Of a stretch of 64,000 nt of DNA, positions 8,191 through 33,798 are shown piece by piece. Under the pieces are notes generated by a model. The model was not told the origin of the DNA. It made no database searches and worked only from the letters and a program-made list of their open reading frames with translations. A program made the position numbers and the translations under genes. Numbering within the stretch: the first letter of the stretch is position 1; each line of letters opens with the position of its first letter. This DNA comes from Allacma fusca (Eukaryota; Arthropoda; Collembola; Symphypleona; Sminthuridae): contig OX359246.1 in NCBI GenBank assembly GCA_947179485.1, positions 33,790,001 to 33,854,000 on the forward strand, written 5' to 3'.

Positions 8191-8233
8191 AGTAGTAGCA
8201 AGAATGTCGATCTATCACATAATCAATAAAATC
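8191..8233 (+). repeat. Left terminal inverted repeat (43 bp)
   Basis: Begins AGTAGTAGCAAGAATG and matches the reverse complement of 33756-33798 over all 43 bases. After base 8233 the two ends diverge completely. The AG...CT termini agree with Polinton ends. Confidence 0.95.
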
Positions 8234-8406: not shown

Positions 8407-8936
8407 ATGGGTGCGACTCAGAGTGTTTCGGGAGCTGGGTCGGAGTGTGAAAACTTCAAGGGGTATAAAGATTGGTCTGAGTCTGGTAGTCAAATAGATT
8501 GGGAGAAAAATGAGGATGGAAGTTGGTATGTGTATTGTTGTGTGGATCGAATATTTCCTTGTCGTTTATGCAAGGCGCGACAGGTGGGAAAGGTTGATGT
8601 GAAAATGTTGAGAGGGGAGTATGAGAGGCTAAAATCGTTTTATGAGCCTGCGCGCTGGAAGAATATGAACGTTTCCCCTCTGGCGTTGGCTCGGGTGGGA
8701 TTCTGGTATTTTGGAGAAACGGATAAGGTATGTATGAATAAACGTTTTAACTTAGATTCGATGAATTGAGTTGAAAGAAGTTGAATTTCTAGGTCAGGTG
8801 TGTATTCTGTGGTGTGACTTTACGAAACTGGAAGGATGGAGACGATCCTAGAAGGGAGCATAGGAAGTACTGGAATAGATGTCCCTTTCTGTGTGGACTC
8901 CCTGTGGGGAATTTGGCTATACGCGAGGGGAAGTGA
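8407..8936 (+). CDS. Single-BIR inhibitor-of-apoptosis-like protein
   Basis: Two exons, 8407-8727 and 8793-8936, joined in phase 0 (donor GTATGT, acceptor TTTCTAG), give about 154 aa. The BIR domain spans about residues 74-141 and is split by the intron just before its first zinc cysteine. It has the canonical C-x2-C-x16-H-x6-C spacing (C110, C113, H130, C137) and the preceding LALARVGFWYFGETDKV signature. BIR proteins bind caspases or IBM peptides, and viral IAPs block host apoptosis; that role here is inferred. The N-terminus MGATQS fits an N-myristoylation signal (Gly2, Ser6), suggesting membrane targeting. There is no RING domain in the reading frame. Just before the stop, AAGTGAGT is a strong donor that could join an exon beginning about 8967 (open to 9162), but that intron would be only about 35 nt. 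First gene inside the left end. Confidence 0.88.
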
Positions 8937-9523
8937 GTAGGGTGTATTCAATAAATGTTGTATGCAAAGTGGAGATGGTTTAGGGGGAGTGGGCTGGCGG
9001 GTGAATTCGTTTACTGGGATCTGCCCGTTTGTTCCAAGGCTTTCAACGGGGGACCCTTGGCCATACAGAAAACCTGCGACAAGGCCAGATGAATCCGAAT
9101 ACGAATATGTACAGTTAAGTGAACGTATGCTTTATACTGGATTCAGCTGGGGGAAGATATAAAGTTTGTCTATGAACGATTTTGGAGGAAGTGATTGTGC
9201 TTTGTTTTCTATGCAAGAAATATAGCAGTGTCTAACGAGAATGTAATACGAATACAAATTTAATGGAAAAAAGTAAATTGATTTTAAAATGATGACATGG
9301 AAAAACCTGTCACGAGCATTGTGTAAAATAAGTATAAAATGATGAAATAAACCATGAGTATTGTGTAAAAAAATATTAAACTGAATAAAGGAATTGTAAA
9401 TAAATTTCCAGTCTTGATCGGTGGCATTATGCTGAAAACAAAATCATTCATTATAAGTCAAAAGTATATGTTGAAGTCCTGCAAAAAAACATGCATAAAT
9501 CAATCATTACATGTTAATCATTT
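8937..9523. other. Spacer between convergent BIR gene and unknown minus-strand gene
   Basis: Holds an open frame at 8962-9162 (plus) that may be a third BIR-gene exon or nothing. At 9287-9395 there is an imperfect direct repeat built on AAAATGATGA and GAGyATTGTGTAAAA. Both neighbouring genes end here, so it is a shared 3' region. Confidence 0.5.
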
Positions 9524-11986: not shown

Positions 11987-12631
11987 ATGGACAGTGTGGA
12001 TTTTGCAATAGCACATCCGTCTACCTGCATTATTGCAGGCGTAACGGGAAGTGGAAAAACCCGCCTGACGTTAGATATAATACGGAATAGAAACAAAGTG
12101 TTTGATAAACCTATACAAAAGGTCCTGTACGTATATTCCGACTTTCAACCATCCTTCTACGAAATTCAGGAAACTGATCCTGACGTTACTTTTACTAAGC
12201 GGTTAGAAGACATTGAATCTGCGCCTAACCCTAGCCTAGTTGTTGTAGACGATCAGATTGATTCTTTGGGGAAAGGACAAGCTCATGATATTATTACAAA
12301 CTTTTTTACAAAACATTCGCATCACCGAGGGGTCTCTATAATAGTGATATTACAAAACCTCTATCATAAAAACCTTCGGGAGCTATCCATTAATACGCAG
12401 TGGTTGTGTTACTTTGACTCTGCAAGGGACAGATCAATAGTATCGACAATTGCACGTCAGGTTTGTCCCGGAAACGTATCTTTCCTGGTCGATGCATACA
12501 GAAAGGCTGTCATAGGTAAAGAGTATAGCTATATTATACTGGACCTGCACCCGAAGCATAAGAAATACGTTTTCTTTGTGAGAAATTCATTATATGCTAC
12601 CCCTGATACAGAAGTATATGGTCCGAAATAA
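11987..12631 (+). CDS. FtsK/HerA-type (A32-like) genome-packaging ATPase
   Basis: 214 aa. Walker A GVTGSGKT is at residues 18-25 and a Walker B strand ending in two aspartates (SLVVVDD) at about 83-89. The size and motif spacing fit the A32-like packaging ATPases of Polintons and adintoviruses, which pump the genome into capsids. It is the first gene of the tight plus-strand block. Its stop shares bases with the next start (TAATG at 12629). A strong donor (ACG|GTAAGTG at about 11918) and an acceptor just before the start (CTTATAG at about 11971) suggest a spliced 5' UTR. The frame is intact with no missing motif. Confidence 0.93.
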   Translation: MDSVDFAIAHPSTCIIAGVTGSGKTRLTLDIIRNRNKVFDKPIQKVLYVYSDFQPSFYEIQETDPDVTFTKRLEDIESAPNPSLVVVDDQIDSLGKGQAHDIITNFFTKHSHHRGVSIIVILQNLYHKNLRELSINTQWLCYFDSARDRSIVSTIARQVCPGNVSFLVDAYRKAVIGKEYSYIILDLHPKHKKYVFFVRNSLYATPDTEVYGPK

Positions 12632-12944: not shown

Positions 12945-13484
12945 ATGGCGCAAATTTACAAAGTTATCGAACCTCAGCTTTACGAAAAACTAATGAGCTT
13001 ATACAAAGATGATAGCAAAAAGACTACTGAGTTAAACGATGTTCCGGTTACAGAGAATGCACACACTGATCAGGAAACACTTAATGAACCTGTGACAGTG
13101 CCTTTGACTAATTCGGATGTCACCAAAACTCATACACAGACTGAAGACAAAACATTACCTCGAAAAAGAAAATCTCAACACCTACAATTATGCTGCTGCA
13201 GATTTCACAAAGGGGAGAACTATATATTGGAACCAGAATGGAAAACGTTCGGGAATGATGTGTCCTTTGGTGAGAAGGAAAAAGGTGATCAAATAGTTGA
13301 CCCTTTGGAAATAAAATCCAGCGAAAAAAGACAAGATCTAAGTACTCCTGGTCCAGACGTTGTTGAGAAAACTGGTCGGAAACTGCGCCCGCGAAAGCAA
13401 GTTGGCAAAGGGAAAAAGAGAAATAAAAAATGGAAGCGAGGAAAGTTGACGAAGAAAGATCGGAAATACAAAAGACGTACTTGA
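12945..13484 (+). CDS. Unknown protein with basic tail, upstream of integrase
   Basis: 179 aa. The short N-terminus (MAQIYKVIEPQLYEKLMSLY) resembles the start of the protein commonly found just before the integrase in Polintons. The middle is Thr/Glu-rich with a CCC cluster near residue 84. The last 40 residues are almost all Lys/Arg, ending in a nuclear-localisation-like or DNA-binding tail. The basic tail overlaps the integrase start by 55 bases in another frame. A virion DNA-binding role is possible but not shown. Confidence 0.75.
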   Translation: MAQIYKVIEPQLYEKLMSLYKDDSKKTTELNDVPVTENAHTDQETLNEPVTVPLTNSDVTKTHTQTEDKTLPRKRKSQHLQLCCCRFHKGENYILEPEWKTFGNDVSFGEKEKGDQIVDPLEIKSSEKRQDLSTPGPDVVEKTGRKLRPRKQVGKGKKRNKKWKRGKLTKKDRKYKRRT

Positions 13485-14398
13485 ATCAGAAATTATCTGG
13501 GTCATTCTCTGGTTTAAGTAGTTTTTTTCAAAATCGTAAAGAGTTTGCAGACAAGGATGAAGTTGCAAAAGAGCTGAGAGCTCTGGATACATTTTCATTG
13601 CACAAGCAAGCCAGAAAAAAGTTTCCAAGACGGAAAATTATGGTTAATTTTATAAATGAAATTTTCACAGCTGATCTGAAAGATTTGGCTGGACTTTCCA
13701 AGTCAAACAGTGGCAATCACTTTGTTCTGGTTGTGGTTGACGCTTTCTCGAGAAAAGCGTATACACGCTTGTTGAAAAACAAGAATTCAGACTCGATGAT
13801 TAAAGCTTTCAAGTCCGTTTTTGCGGAGTCGGGAGTTACACCTGTGTACTTATATACAGATAGGGGAACTGAATTTATGTCAGCTGCATTTGGAAAGTTT
13901 CTCAATGCAAGTCAAGTACAACTGTATAATATCCATTCGCCTATGAAAGCCAGTATGAGCGAAAGATTCATTAGAACACTTTTTACAAAGCTTCAACGAT
14001 ACATGACGATGGAAAACACGAAAAGAATTGTTGAAGTACTCCCAGACTTTACAAGAGCATATAATGCTACGAAACACAGATCTATTGGTATAGCTCCAAA
14101 TGATGTGACTACTAGAAATTCTTATGAGGTGTGGGAGCGCATATACAAGACGTATTTAGAAGAGACAAAAAGACCAAGAAAGCCTCCACAGTACTCAGTA
14201 GGTGATGTGGTTCGTATTTCTCGGATAAAAATGATATTTGAAAAGGGGTATAAGGAATCGTTTTCGAGAGAACTATTTAAAGTTGTTCAGGTTGTGAATA
14301 CATACCCGTATACATTTCGATTAGCCGACATGAATTCCGAACAGTTAAATGCGAGTTTTTATGCGCCTGAGCTAAGTCTAGTTAAGAAGACGGATTAA
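13430..14398 (+). CDS. Polinton integrase (retroviral-type rve, DDE)
   Basis: 322 aa. The N-terminal region contains the Polinton signature LNQKLSGSFSG and FSLHKQARKKFPRRK. The rve catalytic core has candidate catalytic residues D82 (TADLKDL), D144 (YTDRGTEF) and E178 (MSERFIRT). The C-terminal part (about 250-315) has the SH3/chromo-like VGDVVRISRIK...F...F.VV segment typical of these integrases. It inserts the linear element and generates 6-bp duplications, matching the AAATAG seen here. The start at 13430 lies inside the preceding gene, and the position just upstream of conserved sequence supports it. The reading frame is complete. Confidence 0.96.
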   Translation: MEARKVDEERSEIQKTYLNQKLSGSFSGLSSFFQNRKEFADKDEVAKELRALDTFSLHKQARKKFPRRKIMVNFINEIFTADLKDLAGLSKSNSGNHFVLVVVDAFSRKAYTRLLKNKNSDSMIKAFKSVFAESGVTPVYLYTDRGTEFMSAAFGKFLNASQVQLYNIHSPMKASMSERFIRTLFTKLQRYMTMENTKRIVEVLPDFTRAYNATKHRSIGIAPNDVTTRNSYEVWERIYKTYLEETKRPRKPPQYSVGDVVRISRIKMIFEKGYKESFSRELFKVVQVVNTYPYTFRLADMNSEQLNASFYAPELSLVKKTD

Positions 14399-16435: not shown

Positions 16436-17889
16436 ATGGATTTAAATAGCGTTTTTGAGAGAGGGGCTACGGTCTATGAAGGGTCAACAGAGAGCATTCG
16501 ATCTGAGTTGGCCCTTTTTGACCTACTGCCCACTGATATTTCGACTCAATTGAGTAGCGACTTTATCCAGGCATTTCCTCTCGTCTCCATAAAGGAAGAT
16601 TTTAATCCTCTGGAATTTCAAATAACTTTGGATACGTCTGGCTATCTGGATCCGCTAGACAGCTTCATATCTCTTACTTGTCGAATTGTAAATCAGGATG
16701 GCACTCTATGCGATGAAGCGCGCGATCTTGTCGCCCCGTGCAACTTATTCTTTCAGACAATGTTTAGCAACCTGGAGATTTATCTAAATGGGCAATTGAT
16801 TTCCGATACGTCTAATTTTTATCCATGGATTGGATACATGCAACGTCTGTTGAGTGCAAGCCCTCAGGAAAAAGATGGACGACTCAAGAACGAGTTGTGG
16901 TATCCGAATGTGACACCGGAAGTATTTACTGCTTCAGATCCCGGGTGGAAGGCTAGATTTGACATGTCGAAAAAAAGCCAGCCCTTCCAAGTGGTCGGAC
17001 AGCTCGTAGGAAGTATCTTTACACAACCGCGATACATACCAGCTGGTAGTCATATACGAATTGTACTGAGACGTGCACAACCAGAACTTTGTCTTGAATG
17101 CAGTACAACAACGAAGGCCGGTACTAACGGGGTTCCGTACAAGTACCAAATAACGGATGCGGTTTTCTATGGATCTAAGAAAGTTGTTTCTAAGCCCATC
17201 ATTGATATGCACCGGGCTGAACTAGCCCGCGGGAATACATTCAAGTACATTACTAATGATGCTGAGATCAAAACGTTTACGGTAGCATCAGGCCTCAGCT
17301 ATGTAACTACTGATTCTCTTGTTATTGGAAAAATTCCAAAAATAATTGTCATTGGCATGGTCAACTCGGATGGATTTATGGGATCACTGAACAAATCCCC
17401 GTTCAATTTCGTCGACAAAAACCTGTCTGAGATGTCTATTACTTGGAATGGAGATTCTCTCCAGTACAGGGATCTATCTTTGAGTTTTAAGCAAAAGCAA
17501 GCTGACGGAAGCTTCTTAGGGTCAGATGACTTTCTGCTTGGACTCAGGACGCTTGAAAAAACTGCTGCTAATTCGCTGTTGTCCAACGGTATCCAACGCG
17601 ACAATTACACTAAAGGTACATATGAATTAACATTTTTTAGAAACACGTTTTCATAAAACTGGAGTGTGAAATTTAAAAAGGTTAATTCATTTGTACAGGC
17701 AACTGTCTTGTGGCAATTGAGCTACTGCCTAATTCTGGGAACTTTCTCAGTGTCAACAAACGAGGACAGCTTAAAGTATCGCTTAAATTCAGGACCGCGT
17801 TGGACAAGAACATAAATGTCATTGTCTACTGTCAGTATCAGAGTGTCCTGGAAATTGATGCTGATAAAAGAGTGATACTTGATCACTAA
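16436..17889 (+). CDS. Major capsid protein (Polinton double jelly-roll)
   Basis: Two exons: 16436-17615 and 17699-17889 (donor AAAG|GTACAT, acceptor TTTGTACAG), about 456 aa. Without splicing the frame stops at 17656 and lacks the C-terminal strands. With splicing the end reads GQLKVSLKFRTAL then VIVYCQYQSVLEID, which is the conserved C-terminal pattern of Polinton MCPs (the F54H12.2-like family). The N-terminal part has LFDLLPTDISTQLSSDFIQAFP, and the sheet regions have the LDPLDSFISLTCRI and FSNLEIYLNGQLI patterns of the first jelly roll. The protein should form pseudo-hexameric capsomers. An 83-nt intron this close to the 3' end is unusual for a capsid gene. Followed after two bases by the protease. 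Confidence 0.95.
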
Positions 17890-17891
17890 CC

Positions 17892-18422
17892 ATGAATAGC
17901 AGTGAAATTTACCAGGCTCTGGCCTGTCTACTTCCCAAAAACGAAATACCCTTTTACATTGCGTCCGCAGACACGTTGAGGTCGTTGACGAAAAATTCGA
18001 CCTATCCGTATGTTGTTATACAAAATACGGACCGAGCTGATGAGCCAGGCTGGCACTGGGTCAGCTGGTTTGTGCATAACATCAACGATGCTGAGTGGTT
18101 CGACTCGTATGGTCTACCGCCTCGGATTTATAAAGACATTGAATGGCCCGCTAAAAACGTCATTGCAGAAAACTGCCGTTCACTGCAAAGTATTAATTCT
18201 GATGTTTGTGGTCAATATTGTGTATACTTTGCCTATCTAAGAATAATTGGTCTAAGTTATGAAAACTTTATGAGTAGCTTTAAGGTTAGATCAAAATCTA
18301 ATGACGCAATGGTGCGGAAATTTGTAAACAATATTTCTAAGTTTATATCTATAGATTGTGGAAAGCAGAATTGCATGCCAAAGTATGCGACTCGATTCTA
18401 TGGTTATAACAGTATAAGTTGA
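17892..18422 (+). CDS. Adenain-like cysteine protease (maturation protease)
   Basis: 176 aa, close to the length of adenain (about 204) and other Polinton proteases. Candidate catalytic residues are H55 (PGWHWVSW), D71 (WFDSYGLPP), Q99 and C106 (SDVCGQYC), in the adenain order with the expected DS-x-G motif. It would process capsid and core precursors during maturation. It starts two bases after the MCP stop. A polyadenylation signal AATAAA at 18447-18452, 25 bases after the stop, is the first clear one seen after this gene block. Confidence 0.95.
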   Translation: MNSSEIYQALACLLPKNEIPFYIASADTLRSLTKNSTYPYVVIQNTDRADEPGWHWVSWFVHNINDAEWFDSYGLPPRIYKDIEWPAKNVIAENCRSLQSINSDVCGQYCVYFAYLRIIGLSYENFMSSFKVRSKSNDAMVRKFVNNISKFISIDCGKQNCMPKYATRFYGYNSIS

Positions 18423-20261: not shown

Positions 20262-20694
20262 TGAGAACTAGGGTCGAGATTGGTTCTCATGATTTCCCCC
20301 CTCAATAATGATTCGGTTCCTTAGAAGCACCTGTCCGTTTAATTCGACCTTGACCCTTCAGTGTATATGCATTCCAATGAACGCATATTATGAGAACTGA
20401 GGTTGAGCACGGTTCTCACACTACATTCCCCCTCCTTAGTTTGTATTCGGGCTTCCTAGATGCACCTGTCCGTTTAATTCGACCTTGACCCTTCAGTGTA
20501 TATGCATTATAATGAACCTATATTATGAGAACTGAGGTTGAGCACGGTTCTCACACTACATTCCTCCCTCCTTAGTTTGTATTCGGGCTTCCTAGATGCA
20601 CCTGTCTAATAGCATTTATTTATCCTTGAACCTTCAGTGACCATGCATTCTAATGCAGGTGCATGATGAGAGCTTAGATTCAGCATAGTTCTCA
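20262..20694. repeat. Array of four related units each with a 28-bp dyad
   Basis: Four units of about 129-141 bp lie between the helicase and X/PolB. Each carries TGAGAAC-N14-GTTCTCA or a close variant, at 20262-20289, 20391-20418, 20526-20553 and 20667-20694. Units two and three are nearly identical and share CACCTGTCCGTTTAATTCGACCTTGACCC. The last is the most diverged, and a copy of it recurs inverted near 26853. Repeated dyads between divergent replication genes resemble an iteron-type control or origin region, or binding sites for a transcription factor. The sequence cannot decide which. Confidence 0.85.
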
Positions 20695-21187
20695 CGGTTT
20701 ATCAACAGAACCGATTGTCCTCGGTCTGTACATTATACATCCCGTCTCTCACGCACGCAGTGCATCCCTCTGTAAAAACGCAATCTACAAAAAAATGTAG
20801 AAAATAATTATACCTGTGCATATTCGTAGCACAAAACAGTTAAAACGATCTTTATATTTACTTTCACTCACCGTCACTCATTTTTGTCTATGAATTGATC
20901 CAGTTGAGAATGAAATGATTAAAATCTCAGCTGATTTATTACCATTGCAAGTGCTGACGCATTTGGGTAACAAGATACTTTTAAAAATAGTCATAGTTTC
21001 CAAGTCGGTATCAGTTGTTACAGAGTAGTCACCCACGATGGAGACCAAAGGAAGAAGCGATGAGTTGTCAGAATTGATGTATAATTCTTTGTCAACTTTA
21101 GTTAGTAAAATTATAAACAAAAATGATACGACCGGGTTTAAGGGTCTGGAAAGCAGGGAGGAGTGGAAAAGTAAGCTAGTAGATATA
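20562..21187 (-). repeat. Left copy of the inverted X/Y promoter block
   Basis: On the minus strand this contains block B (20703-21187), nearly identical to 27015-27499, followed directly by block A (20562-20702), related to 26844-26984. In the right copy the order is A then B with about 30 bases between. Block B holds the head-to-head 5' ends of genes X and Y. In this copy X is complete (reading plus) while the Y reading frame (minus) is cut at 20703 inside its second exon. Confidence 0.9.
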
Positions 21188-21363
21188 TGCTCTAGACATG
21201 CTATATGCTAACTTGTTTTTCTCTCTCTCTAGCTATATGCGTATGCATTGTCCTCATTGCGGGGCTAAAGCTGGTGAAGTTCTTCACTGATTATTACTTT
21301 CGGTGGAGAGCCGCTCGCAACCAGACACCTGTCATACTCTCTCCTTCCGTGCATAATGGATAG
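21038..21363 (+). CDS. Small single-pass membrane protein X
   Basis: Two exons, 21038-21170 and 21233-21363 (donor AAAA|GTAAGC, acceptor TCTCTCTAG), give 87 aa. The first 44 residues are polar and helical. The second exon encodes one hydrophobic segment (ICVCIVLIAGLKLVKFF), then a short basic and polar tail. No signal peptide is seen, so it is probably a tail-type or type II membrane protein. The intron is pyrimidine-rich and the frame is preserved. The stop overlaps the PolB start by 8 bases (ATGGATAG). A second, truncated and frame-shifted copy of exon 1 lies on the minus strand at about 27040-27170. No function is known. Confidence 0.72.
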
Positions 21364-24300
21364 CAACGAGACGAGTGACAAGCCAAGTCCAATTCGCACT
21401 GGCGAAAGGGGATATGTAAGTACCGTAATGATAATCGCTGAGTGTCAGATTTTCACTCGCGAATATTGATAAATTATGCGTTGTTAATTACAGTGCTTAC
21501 GATGTCCAATGACGCCGTGTGGGTTCTTCAGTAGATCTCGCATCAATTTCGAGTCGCATTTGGAGAGAATTCATTTTTGTGGTGACTGTGATCACTACTG
21601 TAGAGTCAAAGGACAGCATGTGTGTCCATGCCCCGGTTCAAGACGTGGGCATGTTGATTCATACATGCAACCTGATATGTCCAATTTTTCCGAACTTTCC
21701 CGTTCTCATTTAGGCAGTATGCTGTTGTATAAATACAACAAGCATATATCTGCTCCGGACATAGAGTCCACGTTTAAAGAAGTGGCTCCGGCAGCAATAA
21801 CCTTTTTATCTGACTTGTTTAAAATACATGGCCTCATTAAAATAGAAATTGGCATGGGGATAAAAATGGAAAAGGAATCTAAAGATTCCGAGGGCAATTT
21901 GCAATTACACGAAGCAACAGTATATTTCAAGTCAATGCACTACGAATTAGAATGGATAAGTAAGATAGAATATATATTAGTGCATGCTGCTTCTGATATT
22001 GTTGACAAAAAGAATAACTTCTTAAGTCATGGGAGTGGGTGGAATATAAAATACATGTACAGTTTTGAAATTAAAATGGCTGAAGCTAGACTATTTTATA
22101 ATAGTGTTGGGAAAAAATATTTGCCCATGCCTTTTGAGAAGCGCAAGGGGATTGTTAATTTTAAAAACAATGACGACAATTGTTTTCTGTACTGCGTCGC
22201 TGCTGCATTATTTCGCGACGATCAGATAGCATTTAATAAAGAAAATTTTTACAAAAATCGAAACTTGGAAAATCACAATACGTGGACAAAGTATTTTCAT
22301 CTGCTTAAGACAGATTGTATTAACGGTCCAGTAGATGTATATAAAACTATACCATTGTTTGAGGAAAGCAATAATGTTAAAATAAATGTGCTCACACATG
22401 AGGACGGGGATGTCATTCCTATGAGAAGAAGTAACTACATCTCGCCAAGAACAATTAATTTGTTTTTAATTCGAAGTGATGACGATCAACACTTTGTTTT
22501 GATTACAGATATAAACAAATTCTTGTGTAACAAAAGTCCGCGAAAAGTGTTTATTTGCGACCATTGCTTTCGAAATTTAAAATCACCTTCAGCCCTAATG
22601 TTTCATTCGTGTTCAAAAAGTGTGAGCAAGATTAAAGAAAGGCTCCCCAAGAAAGGCGACTGCTTGGAGTTTAAACGACTCGAAATGACATTGCCGTACC
22701 CTTATGTGTTGTATTGGGACTTTGAAACATTTTCATCGTCTTTAAATGAAAAGAAAGGCGCGAGCACTACACTCAACAGTGAATTCCAGGCAGCAAGTTA
22801 TGCATTATGCTTAGTTTATACCACGACAGTGCAATCAAAAATTGTTGCCTGTGAGTATTACGACGGTCCCGATCCGGTCCATCATTTCTTTGAACGTGTT
22901 TTCTATCACGCGAAAAATGTGCTAAACGATATCAGGACAGTCAATAATTTTGTCACACCATCTGATGAAGACCTTGAGCGTCATAATGCTGCTAAACATT
23001 GCGACTTTTGTCGCCGCGAATTTACTTGTTCTAGTAGAAATGAAACCCATGCATCTGATGAAGACGAACCATATAGGACTACGAAGAAAGTTGTAAAAAC
23101 GTATCACCACTGTCACCAAAGTGGGCGTTATCTTCATACATTATGTCAGAGTTGTAATTTAAAAATTAAGTTTAAAAACGATTTAGTATGTGTATGCCAC
23201 AATGGATCTGGATTCGACTTTCATCTTCTACTACAAAATTTGGATTCGCCATTTTTCAGCCCACATGATGTCAACGTCATAAGCAAAGGTGGTGAGAAAC
23301 TAGTTCAGATAGAAATAACCGCCAGCAATATGTACATTCCAGAATTAAAATCAAAGTACGACGAAAACTATACTCCAAGTGCAAAGCAGTCGTGCGGCAA
23401 GAGAAAGGTCAAGGTTCGTTTTATTGACTCGTTCCAGTTTTTGAACTCCAGTTTAAGCACACTGGCTGCGGGTCTTAAAATTGAAAATGCAAGCACAACA
23501 AGTCTAGTTAACGACTGCTTGCCATACCTTTTCCCCGGCCTGGATAACCTTGTTTCTAAAGACACATCAATATTTTTTGAGAAGCTTCCTTATCCATATA
23601 CATACCTTTCGGGACCCGAGAAGCTAGAAATTGGACATCCCATCCCGGGACGGGAGCATTTCGACAACGAATTGAAGAAGGAATCAATTACAAATGAAGA
23701 ATGGGGGAAAATTCAGATTTTAATTGAACAATTTCAAATCAGAGATTTTAAACAGTTTACAAGAGCTTACACTATCATCGACACGGTACTCCTGGGAGTG
23801 ATTTGGGGAAACTTTAGGAGAAACTGTTTTGTTTCGTATGGATTAGATCCAACCTATGTATGTACAGTATCTGGATATTCATGGCAGTGTTTTTTATCTT
23901 TTACCAAAGCCAAGATAGAATATATTACCGACAAAAACATGCTCGACATGATTACATCTGGAATAAGAGGTGGAATGGCTTTCTGCACTCGCAAAATTGT
24001 CACCGCCAATTGTGAACGCTCTCCGCTGGGATTTGATCCTACCAAAGAACGTACACATATTCTCTATAACGATAAGGTTTCCCTTTATGCCACAGCTCTG
24101 CTGGGAAAATTCCCTCATTCCGATTACAAGTGGGAAAGCGTAGACAGTTTGAAAAACATTAATTGGAAAACGTATGATGGAGACAATGAGACTGGGTATA
24201 TTCTGAATGTAAGTTTGCGCTACCCTGAAAAACTACAGGATGAAACTGAGTGTTTGCCATTAGCTCCGGAAAAACGAAAGGTTCGTATTTCCGATTTGTC

Positions 24301-25369
24301 GTCTGGGCAGCAGGAAACGATGGAATCCCTTGGTCTGGTTCGCTCGTTTACAAGCGAACCAAGACTCTTGCTTCATTGCGGGGATCGTATTGAATACGTA
24401 GTCCATTATAAAGCTCTTCAGTTCTACCTAAATATGGGCATGGAATTGCTCGACATACATGCAGGGATTAGTTTTCATGAAGAGGCTTATTTTAAGCCTT
24501 ACATTGAGTTCAACATTGAGCAGCGCAAATCATCGAAAACCGAATCCCAGCGGGCACTGTACAAAATTCTTTCGAATGGAATTTTCGGGAAATCTTTACA
24601 GTCTAACAAAGGAAACGTCAAAGTAAAATTTTGCGGATCCAAGGCTGAATCCCGAAAACTTGTCAGTGACCCTCGGTGTGTTGACTTTGTACCCATAACG
24701 GAAAATATTAGCATGGTTATGCTTTCGCCAAAGGAGATTGTCTTGAATAATATCATACAATCCGGGATGACGTGCTTGGATCTCGCCAAAGTCATATTCT
24801 ATCACGGCTACTATCGGCAACTACAACAAGTGTTTCCCGGACGAATTTCTAATCTTTACGTTGATACCGATTCCTGTATTGCTCTTGTTTCAGACCCAAA
24901 CAACTCTTTGTTTAAAGACATTGTCGACCACAAAGATTTTTTTGATTTCTCAAAGCTGCCTCGATGTCATGAAATTTTTAAACTGTATCCAGAATTCCCT
25001 GATTTACGATCGAAATCTGCTGGAACAGCAGGTCTTTGGAAATTAGAATCCTTGGATATTTGCCAGATAGTCACTATCAAGAGCAAGCAGTACAGTATTT
25101 TGTATTTCGACCAAGCTGAAGAACTCAAGTGCAAGGGAGTTCCGTCTGCTGCTTTGAAGTCGTTCAACCATGCAAAATACACATCCGTGATCGAATCTAA
25201 CAAAGTTTTCTATGTTGACTGCAGTTACATTCGCAGTCTGAAACACAAATTGTATAATATTACTGTAAATAAATTAGGGTTTCATTGCTTAGATGTATAT
25301 CGTGTGTACCCCGATCCCAATGACTACAATTTCTCTCTCCCATTCGGACACTACAAATTACGTAAGTAA
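21356..25369 (+). CDS. Protein-primed-type family B DNA polymerase
   Basis: Exons 21356-21415 and 21494-25369, joined in phase 0, give about 1311 aa, in the Polinton PolB size range. The junction completes an N-terminal zinc finger C-x4-C-x12-H-x4-H. A cysteine-protease-like (OTU-type) N-terminal region follows (NFKNNDDNCFLYCVAAALF). Exonuclease motif I is YWDFETF near 432 and motif II HNGSGFDFHLLLQNL near 600. Polymerase motif A is around NDKVSLYATALL near 878, motif B KILSNGIFGKSLQ near 1043 and motif C YVDTDS near 1144. It would copy the linear element using a protein primer. It starts inside the last codons of X. An AATAAA lies at 25401-25406. Confidence 0.96.
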
Positions 25370-26843: not shown

Positions 26844-27499
26844 GATAAACCGTGAGAACTATGCTGAATCTAAGCTCTCATCATGCACCTGCATTAGAAT
26901 GCATGGTCACTGAAGGTTCAAGGATAAATAAATGCTATTAGACTGGCGCATCTAGGAAGCCCGAATACAAACCAAGGAGGGGGGAACTATTCCATCGAGT
27001 GCTCTAGCAGTATATCTACTAGCTTACTTTTCCACTCCTCCCTGCTTTCCAGACCCTTAAACCCGGTCGTATCATTTTTTTGTTTATAATTTTACTAACT
27101 AAAGTTGACAAAGAATTATACATCAATTCTGACAACTCATCGCTTCTTCCTTTGGTCTCCATCGTGGGTGACTACTCTTTAACAACTGATACCGACTTGG
27201 AAACTATGACTATTTTTAAAAGTATCTTGTTACCCAAATGCGTCAGCACTTGCAATGGTAATAAGACAGTTGAGATTTTTAATCATTTCATTCTCAACTG
27301 GATCCATTCATAGACAACAATGAGTGACGGTGAGTGAAAGTAAATATAAAGCTCGTTTTAAATGTTTTTCTGCTACCAATTTTCACAGTATAATTATTTT
27401 CTACATTTTTTTTGTAGATTGCGTTTTAACAGAGGGATGCACTACGTGCGTGAGAGACGGGATGTATTATGTACAGACCGAGGACAATCGGTTCTGTTG
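26844..27499 (+). repeat. Right copy of the inverted X/Y promoter block
   Basis: Block A (26844-26984, with one TGAGAAC...TCTCA dyad) is followed by block B (27015-27499). B is inverted relative to 20703-21187 and nearly identical, with a few substitutions. In this copy Y is complete (plus). X exon 1 on the minus strand carries two extra T/A bases in a homopolymer (27075-27081) that shift its frame, and the X second exon is absent. Confidence 0.9.
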
Positions 27500-27983
27500 C
27501 ACATCCGATCCCGGGCTACTTGACTCAAACGTAATCAAAATAGTCCTCGACCTGGCTGATTGCGTACGAGAAGGGCTGGAAGGAACGAGCATCGTCCCTA
27601 TAATTGCAGGTAAAAGCCGTTATTTAACGACTTGCCTTTTTTCAACTACTCAAAAGTAGAATATTTGGTGAATGTTGTTATTACTTACAGGAATAGGATC
27701 AACCGTTGCACTCTTGCTCGGGATCGGTGGCATGCTCATTTGCGTGCTAAGGAGGAAGAAAAGGGGGAACGCATCGCAGAGGACTCCATTGTGGAAAACT
27801 TTGGACAACCGGGGAGGCGAGAGTAACGAGAACATCGAGATGCAGGAGTTGAGAATTCCCAACTACAATGCAACCGATTCCACGATGGTGCATACTACCG
27901 GCACCTTTATGTGGCAATCACCGCCAACCCCCCGACGTGTGCTGAGTGTTCCGATTCCGGAGCCACCTCCAATGCCACTATAA
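27320..27983 (+). CDS. Small cysteine-rich single-pass membrane protein Y
   Basis: Exons 27320-27329, 27418-27609 and 27691-27983 join in phase to about 164 aa. The first exon has only ten bases (donor ACG|GTGAGT). The N-terminal 60 residues contain seven cysteines, including CTTC and CC. A hydrophobic span follows at about 62-87 (IVPIIAGIGSTVALLLGIGG...), then a basic stop-transfer RRKKRG and a 75-residue tail ending in Pro-rich PPTPRR and PIPEPPPMP. No signal peptide is visible, so topology is uncertain. If the N-terminus is outside, the tail could bind SH3 or WW domains; this is inference. Divergent from the X promoter in block B, and a truncated copy sits at 20703-20870 (minus). It could be a virion membrane or host-interaction protein. 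Confidence 0.72.
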
Positions 27984-28255: not shown

Positions 28256-29701
28256 ATGGAAAATTGTCAAATTTGCAACGTTGATCTGGAGCTGCCCCCA
28301 GTGCACTCAGCAGAAACCATGGTTGTTCTGCCCATCAACACTCCATTTTTAAGAGGCCATGGCAGAAGCCATTATAACATTTTAGACCAGTTTAACGATC
28401 ACGGTTTCCAGCAATGGAAGCATTTTTCCTCCGTGACCATCGCTACCGATCGGCTTATGTCCGAAATGGACTTCTTTGGATGTGCACATGGGTTTCACAT
28501 CCCCTGCCTACTAAAATATCTGTCCAGGGAATTCAACGACCCCGATGTCGTACAAACCAAGGACTACACCATACGATGCAGACTTTGCTCGGCAAAGTGC
28601 CGCTGGTTTTGTGAACTTCGTCCAGCAATGTCCATGAATTACTGGCTTCGCCAGTATGAGTACTTGTATTGTAAGTACCTGTTTATACATTATTGAATTA
28701 ACTAAATGTATGTGTATATTTTTATCAACCTTTTTGTGTATATTTTTATCAAGCAACTATTCTTAGATTTTATTTTTTTGTCCTGCAGTTCCTCAAGACC
28801 AGTTCTACCCCGAACTGAATGAGCACTATGACATTTTCCGGAGGGTCAATAGTGTTACGGTTCGAGACGGTGGGATTGTACCAGTCCTATTTGCGCCTGA
28901 AGACGCAAGGCTAGAAAGACCTTGGACTGGTACGCTATCCTAGTAATTTTCTCCCCGTATATAGCTGTCACCCTTACACACTTATTAACCGAAAAACAAT
29001 ATATATTTTCAGATGATGTCCCTAAAACCTCGAATAAGCCAGCACCTGTCCCATGTCCATTCTTTCAGGAGCCTTGGGTCAGTGATGGGACACATCGTGG
29101 TGCCGTTGACGGAAATCTACTTCAAATTCCGTCTAGCAACGTGTGGCTGACGCCACCGGCCTCGCCATCACCAACATTTCAAGATCTTATATCTCCCGGA
29201 GTCAACCACATGGGACCTCCGGAAGCGATTATATTTGATAGTGATGATGAAATTGACGGGCCTGCTGAAACATTTCAAGGTCGTATATCTACCGGAGTCA
29301 ACCACATGGAACCTCCAGAAGTGATCATACTTGATAGTGATGATGATGACATTGACGGGCCTGTTGAACCACCGAGGTCACCCGAGGTTATAACTCTAGA
29401 CGAGGATACAGTGTCCCCAGAAAATGCGATCGAGAACCCATCAGTTGAGAACCCACCAGTTGAGAACCCTCCAGTTGAAACATCAACAGTGATTGACTAC
29501 AACCACGGCATTGATTCAACCAACGAGGATCTGTCACTCGAAGACGCCTTTGCGTTCCTCGAGGAATTGGATTTTGTCGAATTGGACCAGATTACCAACG
29601 TTCAAAGTGTTCTACAAGATATCAGAAAAGAAAAGCAGGCTGATATCGAGCTCATTGAACGCATCGAAAACCAGTTAAATAATTATGAAAATCTTAAATG
29701 A
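28256..29701 (+). CDS. RING-H2 protein with three SUMO-interaction-like motifs (STUbL-like)
   Basis: Exons 28256-28670, 28789-28929 and 29013-29701 join in consistent phase to about 414 aa. The N-terminal RING-H2 ligands are C4, C7, then after a long loop C76, H78, H81, C84, then C108, C111. The C-terminal half is acidic and Pro-rich and contains AIIFDSDDE (257-265), VIILDSDDDD (289-298) and VITLDED (311-317). These match the SUMO-interaction-motif form of a hydrophobic core followed by acidic/Ser residues. The first two lie in a duplicated segment of about 32 residues. RING plus tandem SIMs is the layout of SUMO-targeted ubiquitin ligases such as RNF4. By analogy it may direct ubiquitination of sumoylated host antiviral proteins, which is inference. 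The extra-long RING loop could instead mean a divergent fold. Confidence 0.82.
29225..29361 (+). repeat. Coding duplication carrying SIM-like motifs
   Basis: Two copies, about 29178-29266 and 29274-29361, each encode FQ..IS.GVNHM.PPE followed by a hydrophobic-acidic SIM-like motif and IDGP. They are about 96 bp apart and recently duplicated. This would raise valency for SUMO chains if the motifs bind SUMO. Confidence 0.85.
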
Positions 29702-33693: not shown

Positions 33694-33716
33694 CTCACAG
33701 TGCCCCTATATAGCAA

Positions 33717-33786
33717 AATGTCGATCTATCACATAATCAATAAAATCTCCATGGAGATTTTATTGATTATGTGATAGATCGACATT
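33717..33786. repeat. Perfect 70-bp palindrome at the right terminus
   Basis: The sequence is self-complementary about the point between 33751 and 33752 (CC/ATGG centre). Its right arm is most of the right terminal inverted repeat; its left arm is an inverted copy of the terminal repeat lacking the outer 12 bases. The left end of the element has no such inverted copy, so the right end carries a hairpin-like terminal duplication. Confidence 0.94.
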
Positions 33787-33798
33787 CTTGCTACTACT
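33756..33798 (-). repeat. Right terminal inverted repeat (43 bp)
   Basis: Exact reverse complement of 8191-8233, ending in CTTGCTACTACT next to the AAATAG duplication. Confidence 0.95.

Follow-up and report, generated by a model that had tools for sequence, protein, structure and literature searches.

A RING-H2 gene with SIM-like motifs in a multi-copy Polinton-type element of the springtail Allacma fusca

The window, a stretch of 64,000 nt of the Allacma fusca genome (contig OX359246.1), contains a virus-like element and a three-exon gene whose product combines an N-terminal RING-H2 with C-terminal hydrophobic-acidic motifs resembling SUMO-interaction motifs (SIMs). The locus raises the question of whether this gene belongs to the element, and whether its product has the layout of a SUMO-targeted ubiquitin ligase (STUbL) that might act on the host.

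The region at ~8.2-29.9 kb of the window has a G+C content of ~0.38-0.42 vs ~0.32-0.36 in the immediate flanks, and the value climbs back to 0.36-0.40 beyond 34.5 kb. The following features were assigned within this block:

11987..12631, + strand: A32-like packaging ATPase, weak (Pfam Pox_A32, E 0.0023, below cut-off)
13430..14398, + strand: retroviral-type integrase (rve, Pfam 7.4e-10)
16436..17656, + strand: 406-aa ORF, putative capsid protein (MCP), named by position
17892..18422, + strand: adenain/Ulp1-type cysteine protease, weak (sole PDB match Cysteine protease S273R, E 0.03)
21509..25369, + strand: family B DNA polymerase (PolB), protein-primed type
27324..27983, + strand: neighbouring two-exon gene with a Cys-rich segment, one membrane-span-like stretch and a Pro-rich tail (by eye)

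Both a retroviral integrase and a protein-primed PolB, the pair by which Polintons/Mavericks are recognized, are present, and the block is taken as a Polinton-type element. The polymerase has no Pfam match of its own, and is 48% identical to the protein P0003, which matches DNA_pol_B_2 at 9e-17. The protease ORF is likewise without a Pfam match, its catalytic pattern being recognized by eye. The 406-aa ORF, which has no Pfam, PHROG or PDB match, is presumed from its position to be the capsid gene, which in Polintons encodes a double jelly-roll protein. A PIF1 helicase (1.1e-20) was also found in the block. No terminal inverted repeats were found flanking the element in the window; a 43-bp repeat at 8191 and 33756 was rejected as the element ends, as it belongs to a small palindromic repeat (33711-33798). 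Two inverted arms (20561-21191 and 26844-27499) are 95-97% alike with two blocks in swapped order; they enclose PolB and a 273-aa minus-strand gene, and one of them contains a piece of the membrane-protein-like gene at 27324..27983. A two-exon, inhibitor-of-apoptosis-like gene (8407-8937, + strand) lies at the left margin of this block; once spliced, it matches a complete BIR domain (Pfam 7.7e-18).

The RING gene is made up as follows:

28256..28670, + strand: exon 1, complete RING-H2, 138 codons and 1 base
28671..28788, + strand: intron 1, GTAAGT...CTGCAG
28789..28929, + strand: exon 2, phase 1, no Met
28930..29012, + strand: intron 2, GTACGC...TTTCAG
29013..29701, + strand: exon 3, poorly conserved tail that includes the SIM-like array and a C-terminal segment

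The three exons join in frame to 414 codons and a stop (414 aa), with consensus-like splice sites. The codon-usage score is positive only in the reading frame given here for exons 1-3 and the RING loop, and is negative in intron 1. The coordinates proposed in the initial annotation are correct. Relatives of the gene were read in six subfamilies, A (the window and its near-identical copies) to F; two copies each were read of B, C and D, and one each of E (L050) and F. Intron 1 is 118, 115 or 91 nt long in the near-identical copies, 123 nt in B and 127 nt in C, and intron 2 is 81-88 nt long in the near-identical copies. In subfamily C the gene reads through, and intron 2 is unnecessary. The reading frame of exons 1-3 is intact in 15 of the 18 near-identical copies, although the intron lengths drift; one exception lacks the start of exon 1 (L023), one has a stop at residue 230 (L027) and one lacks the gene (L019). 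The junction of exons 1 and 2 is identical in A, B and C (phase 1, with a GTAAGT or GTGAGT donor), and exon 3 is for this reason regarded as part of the RING gene; its C-terminal segment, helix-like by eye, is kept in the same three subfamilies. The doubt raised at the outset, that the C-terminal exon might come from another transcript, was not borne out, given this common junction and the 15 intact frames. The only annotated database relative (P0001, from Allacma fusca) has the end of the capsid ORF, and not exon 1, fused to exons 2-3, which is taken as a gene-prediction error.

The RING-H2 ligands are C4-x2-C7-x68-C76-x-H78-x2-H81-x2-C84-x23-C108-x2-C111. The RING-H2 that the initial annotation placed at the N-terminus has all eight zinc ligands, in C3H2C3 order. 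This pattern is unique among the 233 stop-to-stop frames of at least 60 aa in the window, and was seen in one of 300,000 shuffles of exon 1. Only RING models matched exon 1 in Pfam (six), all of them below their cut-offs (best E 0.0012; the best curated RING model, PF23413, at 19.7 bits vs a cut-off of 27.4). Five subfamily members scanned against Pfam matched nine families, of which eight are zinc fingers of RING type or RING-like and one is PHD-like; no family was matched by more than three of the five. A profile search of the PDB gave the ligase MYCBP2 as its top two matches (E 0.2); the third match was not a RING. AlphaFold2 run on exon 1 alone and without an alignment reached a pLDDT of 32, which is uninformative either way. 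The first RING loop, of 68 residues, far exceeds the usual length, and the Pro that usually precedes the last Cys of RINGs is absent. The loop is coding by codon usage and conserved in relatives; an unspliced intron at this place is ruled out by that codon usage and by the conservation in B and C. The eight ligands are present in A, B, C and E, together with the signatures C-x-I-C and C-x-H-x-[FW]-H-x-x-C, and D and F lack the ligand C76 and have a last pair of the form C-x4-C.

The association of the gene with the element was surveyed in the 392.7 Mb genome of Allacma fusca. The capsid ORF was scored at 102 or more genomic places, of 681 candidates. Eighteen of these are at 99-100% identity, 17 of them without a stop, and for this reason a recent spread is suggested by the sequences. 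Other capsid-gene copies are at 95-97%, 74% and 61-64% identity, with one partial copy at 91%, and copies are located on C1, C8, C9, C10, C12 and others. A relative of the RING gene lies within 20 kb of 88 of the 102 listed capsid-gene places, compared with 286 of 19,589 random sites; no RING relative lies that close to the other 14, and for 35 RING places no capsid gene is listed. Exon 1 was found at 131 places genome-wide: 19 at 98-100% and full-length, 9 at 74-75%, 4 at 70%, and the remainder at lower identity or partial. As to the related Polintons that were to be surveyed, the gene is collinear and at the expected position in 16 of the 17 other near-identical copies; in the remaining one (L019) it is absent, and the integrase and a 541-aa ORF come after PolB (L044). 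The offsets between the RING and capsid genes, from low coordinate to low coordinate, are mainly ~+11 to +12, +4.4 to +6.4 and -5.8 to -7.6 kb, and a few lie elsewhere. From these three groups it follows that gene order was shuffled between subfamilies and the RING gene kept. The description of the gene as Polinton-encoded is upheld by these counts: the RING gene is regularly carried, as an accessory gene, by a large Polinton-type clade present in many copies in this springtail. Relatives of the membrane-protein-like gene sit next to the RING gene of B, C, D and F, and a BIR-like match was also found close to an element of subfamily E (L038/L039).

Purifying selection acts on the RING half. 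In exon 1, A and B differ by ~71 synonymous and 50 nonsynonymous changes (dN 0.17, with dS saturated), omega is 0.11 between B and C, and A differs from the copy L014 by nine synonymous changes and one nonsynonymous. The near-identical copies show synonymous variation at 11 codons and nonsynonymous variation at five. Identity to A in exon 1 is 74% (B) and 70% (C), whereas in the tail it is 28% (B) and, over the first part only, 44% (C).

The tail of the window's protein carries the three hydrophobic-acidic motifs described in the initial annotation, two of them within a tandem duplication:

29173..29368, + strand: tandem duplication, ~97 nt x 2, that includes SIM-like motifs 1 and 2
29225..29251, + strand: SIM-like motif 1, AIIFDSDDE (residue 257), not a strict V/I/L core
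29321..29350, + strand: SIM-like motif 2, VIILDSDDDD (residue 289), strict core with acidic/Ser stretch
29387..29407, + strand: SIM-like motif 3, VITLDED (residue 311), strict core

The SIM is described in the available text of two sources as a loose motif with a four-residue hydrophobic core, mostly V/I/L, and acidic or phospho-Ser flanks (PMC12751080, PMC3174244). Two of the three window motifs (2 and 3) have the strict core. Two or more SIM motifs occur in ~6% of shuffled subfamily A tails, and in 19% when acid is also allowed before the core, so that the array in A is not proof alone and the number of SIMs by itself was rejected as proof of SUMO binding. Support for the array comes from the relatives. 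Of the 16 near-identical copies that are readable here, 12 have three tandem units and four have two (the window, L014, L022 and L023), and P0001 has one. The frame PE-x-I-x-x-D-x-D is kept in the motifs read, except in the last one of L020 (PD). Eight of the 10 substituted codons between the two units of the window change the residue, and the repeat is therefore not strongly constrained. The sole basic cluster found in the A protein is RKEK at 390.

The tails of the other subfamilies are diverse; for D, E and F, only open frames were followed, so that additional exons may have escaped notice. Subfamily B has a SIM pair, VITL+SDNDDD and NDDDDD+VVLL+DE, on which both copies read agree (P 0.003 against shuffles with at least four acidic residues, 0.08 with at least three). 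PEVITL is common to the tails of A (in motif 3) and B and is one of only two identical stretches of six or more residues, and the aligner did not pair the PEVITL of B with motif 3 of A. Both copies of subfamily C have the same tail; the RING and the C-terminal segment are present in C, but no core followed by acid. When acid is allowed before the core, LLRV matches, as do two cores that overlap within the C-terminal segment (P 0.02-0.04), these looser matches falling mostly in the helix-like part. The core seen in subfamily E is a bare VEVLD that lacks an acidic stretch, and E has no SIM match, D has no SIM match in either copy read, and F has one weak match (LLGL-ESETEG). Acidic-flanked SIM pairs are thus found in two of the six subfamilies read (A and B). 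The STUbL-like layout claimed for the gene is thus supported in part: a RING goes with an acidic-flanked SIM-like pair in A and B, and no such pair was found in the copies read of C, D, E and F, so that SUMO targeting would apply at most to some RING lineages. Two other short motifs were observed. TPPASP (in LTPPASPSP, residues ~230-239) is conserved in A, B and C, the pattern TPPxSP occurring in 0.06-0.26% of shuffles; it is among the few tail blocks that all three retain, and resembles an Fbw7/Cdc4 phosphodegron. QTKITDYY is present in both D copies (L042 and L049), its pattern in 1-3% of shuffles, and is a PCNA-box-like peptide with the TD of PIP degrons. Taken together, the family appears to combine a conserved RING with tails that change.

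The reading preferred here is that the subfamily A protein would be an ICP0-like SUMO-targeted E3 directed against sumoylated host factors. Given the purifying selection on the RING half, its most probable role is that of a ubiquitin ligase, with an E2 recruited from the host. The fast-changing tail, far less conserved than exon 1, may for that reason select the substrates. In A and B its SIM-like motifs, with their acidic flanks, could provide avidity for poly-SUMO or for multiply sumoylated host proteins, and in A they have been multiplied by the tandem duplication; different tails seem to serve the remaining subfamilies. Sumoylated host factors would then be ubiquitinated by the ligase. The most plausible among them would be repressors of chromatin or nuclear bodies that gather on element DNA, either incoming or excised, as has been proposed for ICP0, and the element would benefit against nuclear silencing. 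Taken as a whole this chain is proposed tentatively, and may fail about as easily as hold. A broader form of it is possible though rather doubtful: a modular RING-H2 platform would be kept by the whole Polinton clade and its tail swapped between lineages, with SIM valency in the youngest lineage evolving by tandem duplication, as in an arms race with sumoylated repressors, so that an ICP0-type strategy would have arisen independently.

The protein may instead be a RING E3 that is targeted by other short motifs, TPPASP mattering more, and the acidic-hydrophobic repeats would then be a CK2-phosphorylated spacer or an acidic activation segment. The conservation of TPPASP in A, B and C, the absence of A/B-type SIM pairs from C, D, E and F, and the PCNA-box-like QTKITDYY that D has instead are consistent with this explanation; it is nevertheless unlikely, as PEVITL with an acidic stretch is found in both A and B despite only 28% tail identity, and the duplicated units keep PE-x-I-x-x-D-x-D. 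A role of the SIMs in localisation, or of the protein as a SUMO E3 or scaffold at SUMO-rich nuclear foci, with sumoylated targets not ubiquitinated, is quite unlikely. PIAS ligases have an SP-RING, unlike the RING-H2 pattern, and the zinc-ligand pattern of the element protein is of the ubiquitin-type RING-H2. Such a role does have counterparts, in that SIMs are also described for RANBP2 and the PIAS family, which are SUMO E3 ligases (PMC12751080), and K-bZIP of KSHV is named as a viral SUMO ligase (PMC3749962).

No less unlikely is a RING-like module that is a structural zinc domain, with a virion, packaging or nucleic-acid role and without ligase activity. It would accommodate the weak Pfam scores and the deviating ligands of D and F, low-identity relatives of the gene being kept at many loci all the same; the eight ligands of subfamilies A, B, C and E, with their signatures C-x-I-C and C-x-H-x-[FW]-H-x-x-C, speak against it. 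A host gene beside the element, or an artefact joining unrelated exons, is very hard to credit: the missing terminal inverted repeats and the one annotated model that fuses exons 2-3 to the capsid ORF would fit it, but the genome survey already contradicts it, a host neighbour being rejected by the co-occurrence at 88 of 102 places, and the exon junction is the same in three subfamilies.

Among known systems, the preferred reading, a SUMO-targeted E3, has its nearest counterpart in ICP0. The carriers of ICP0 are a different virus group from Polintons. Both ICP0 and the RING gene are nevertheless located on a DNA virus or virus-like element, and the alphaherpesvirus RING ligases of the ICP0 type combine, like the A gene, a RING with several SIM-like sequences, some of them acidic/Ser-flanked, ICP0 being described in the available text as a viral SUMO-targeted ubiquitin ligase (PMC3174244). 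Unlike those of ICP0, the SIM-like motifs of the element are in tandem and vary in number between copies. No homology to ICP0 was indicated, as protein database searches with the RING protein returned only the Allacma record. The cellular STUbLs (RNF4, Arkadia/RNF111 and Slx5-Slx8) likewise have a RING and multiple SIMs; unlike them, the element protein has an N-terminal RING with a 68-residue first loop, and no homology was found in the protein searches. In RNF4 the SIMs sit in the N-terminus, according to the portion of the source available (PMC3174244). With RING-H2 E3 ligases in general the element RING has in common the C3H2C3 order and the C-x-H-x-F-H-x-x-C core, and differs from them in its very long loop 1. 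A predicted E3 ubiquitin ligase is described for the Polinton-like virus CpV-PLV Curly; this virus is associated with an alga and the giant virus of that alga, and SIMs are unmentioned in the text available (PMC6459981).

Outside the genome, a single relative (from Allacma fusca) was found among ~5.8 billion proteins in a search that needs shared 5-residue words. The RING protein, the 406-aa ORF and a single PolB were each run against IMG/VR, where no relative turned up, and a search with an integrase alignment found nothing. Two PolB alignments gave two Polinton-like contigs (L001, the same as L003, and L002), which make up the entire outside survey; neither shows the RING-H2 pattern or a gene combining RING and SIMs. 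An ORF of the Polinton-like virus L001 (14099-14836) has a Cys-rich C-terminus with a B-box-type Pfam match below cut-off (E 0.005). Among the literature matches listed, no title or opening of an abstract indicated a RING-SIM gene in a Polinton, which does not establish its absence from print, and no such Polinton gene was met in the available parts of PMC4642659, PMC10120064, PMC11071308, PMC5803895, PMC6431247, PMC6027436 and PMC2836005. PMC6027436, in the part available, counts SUMO-acceptor-type motifs and not SIMs in virophage proteins.

Even without SUMO binding, a conserved RING accessory gene is present by 88 of the 102 listed capsid genes, one not found described in the available portions of the literature searched. 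If the preferred reading is true, the tens of copies in one genome, with differing SIM number and tail type, would be a natural series for the effect of SIM valency and of the tail on ligase targets, and the gene would be a concrete candidate for the handling of host silencing by Polintons. In that case an integrating virus-like element would share with herpesviruses a SUMO-to-ubiquitin route against nuclear repression, separately evolved.
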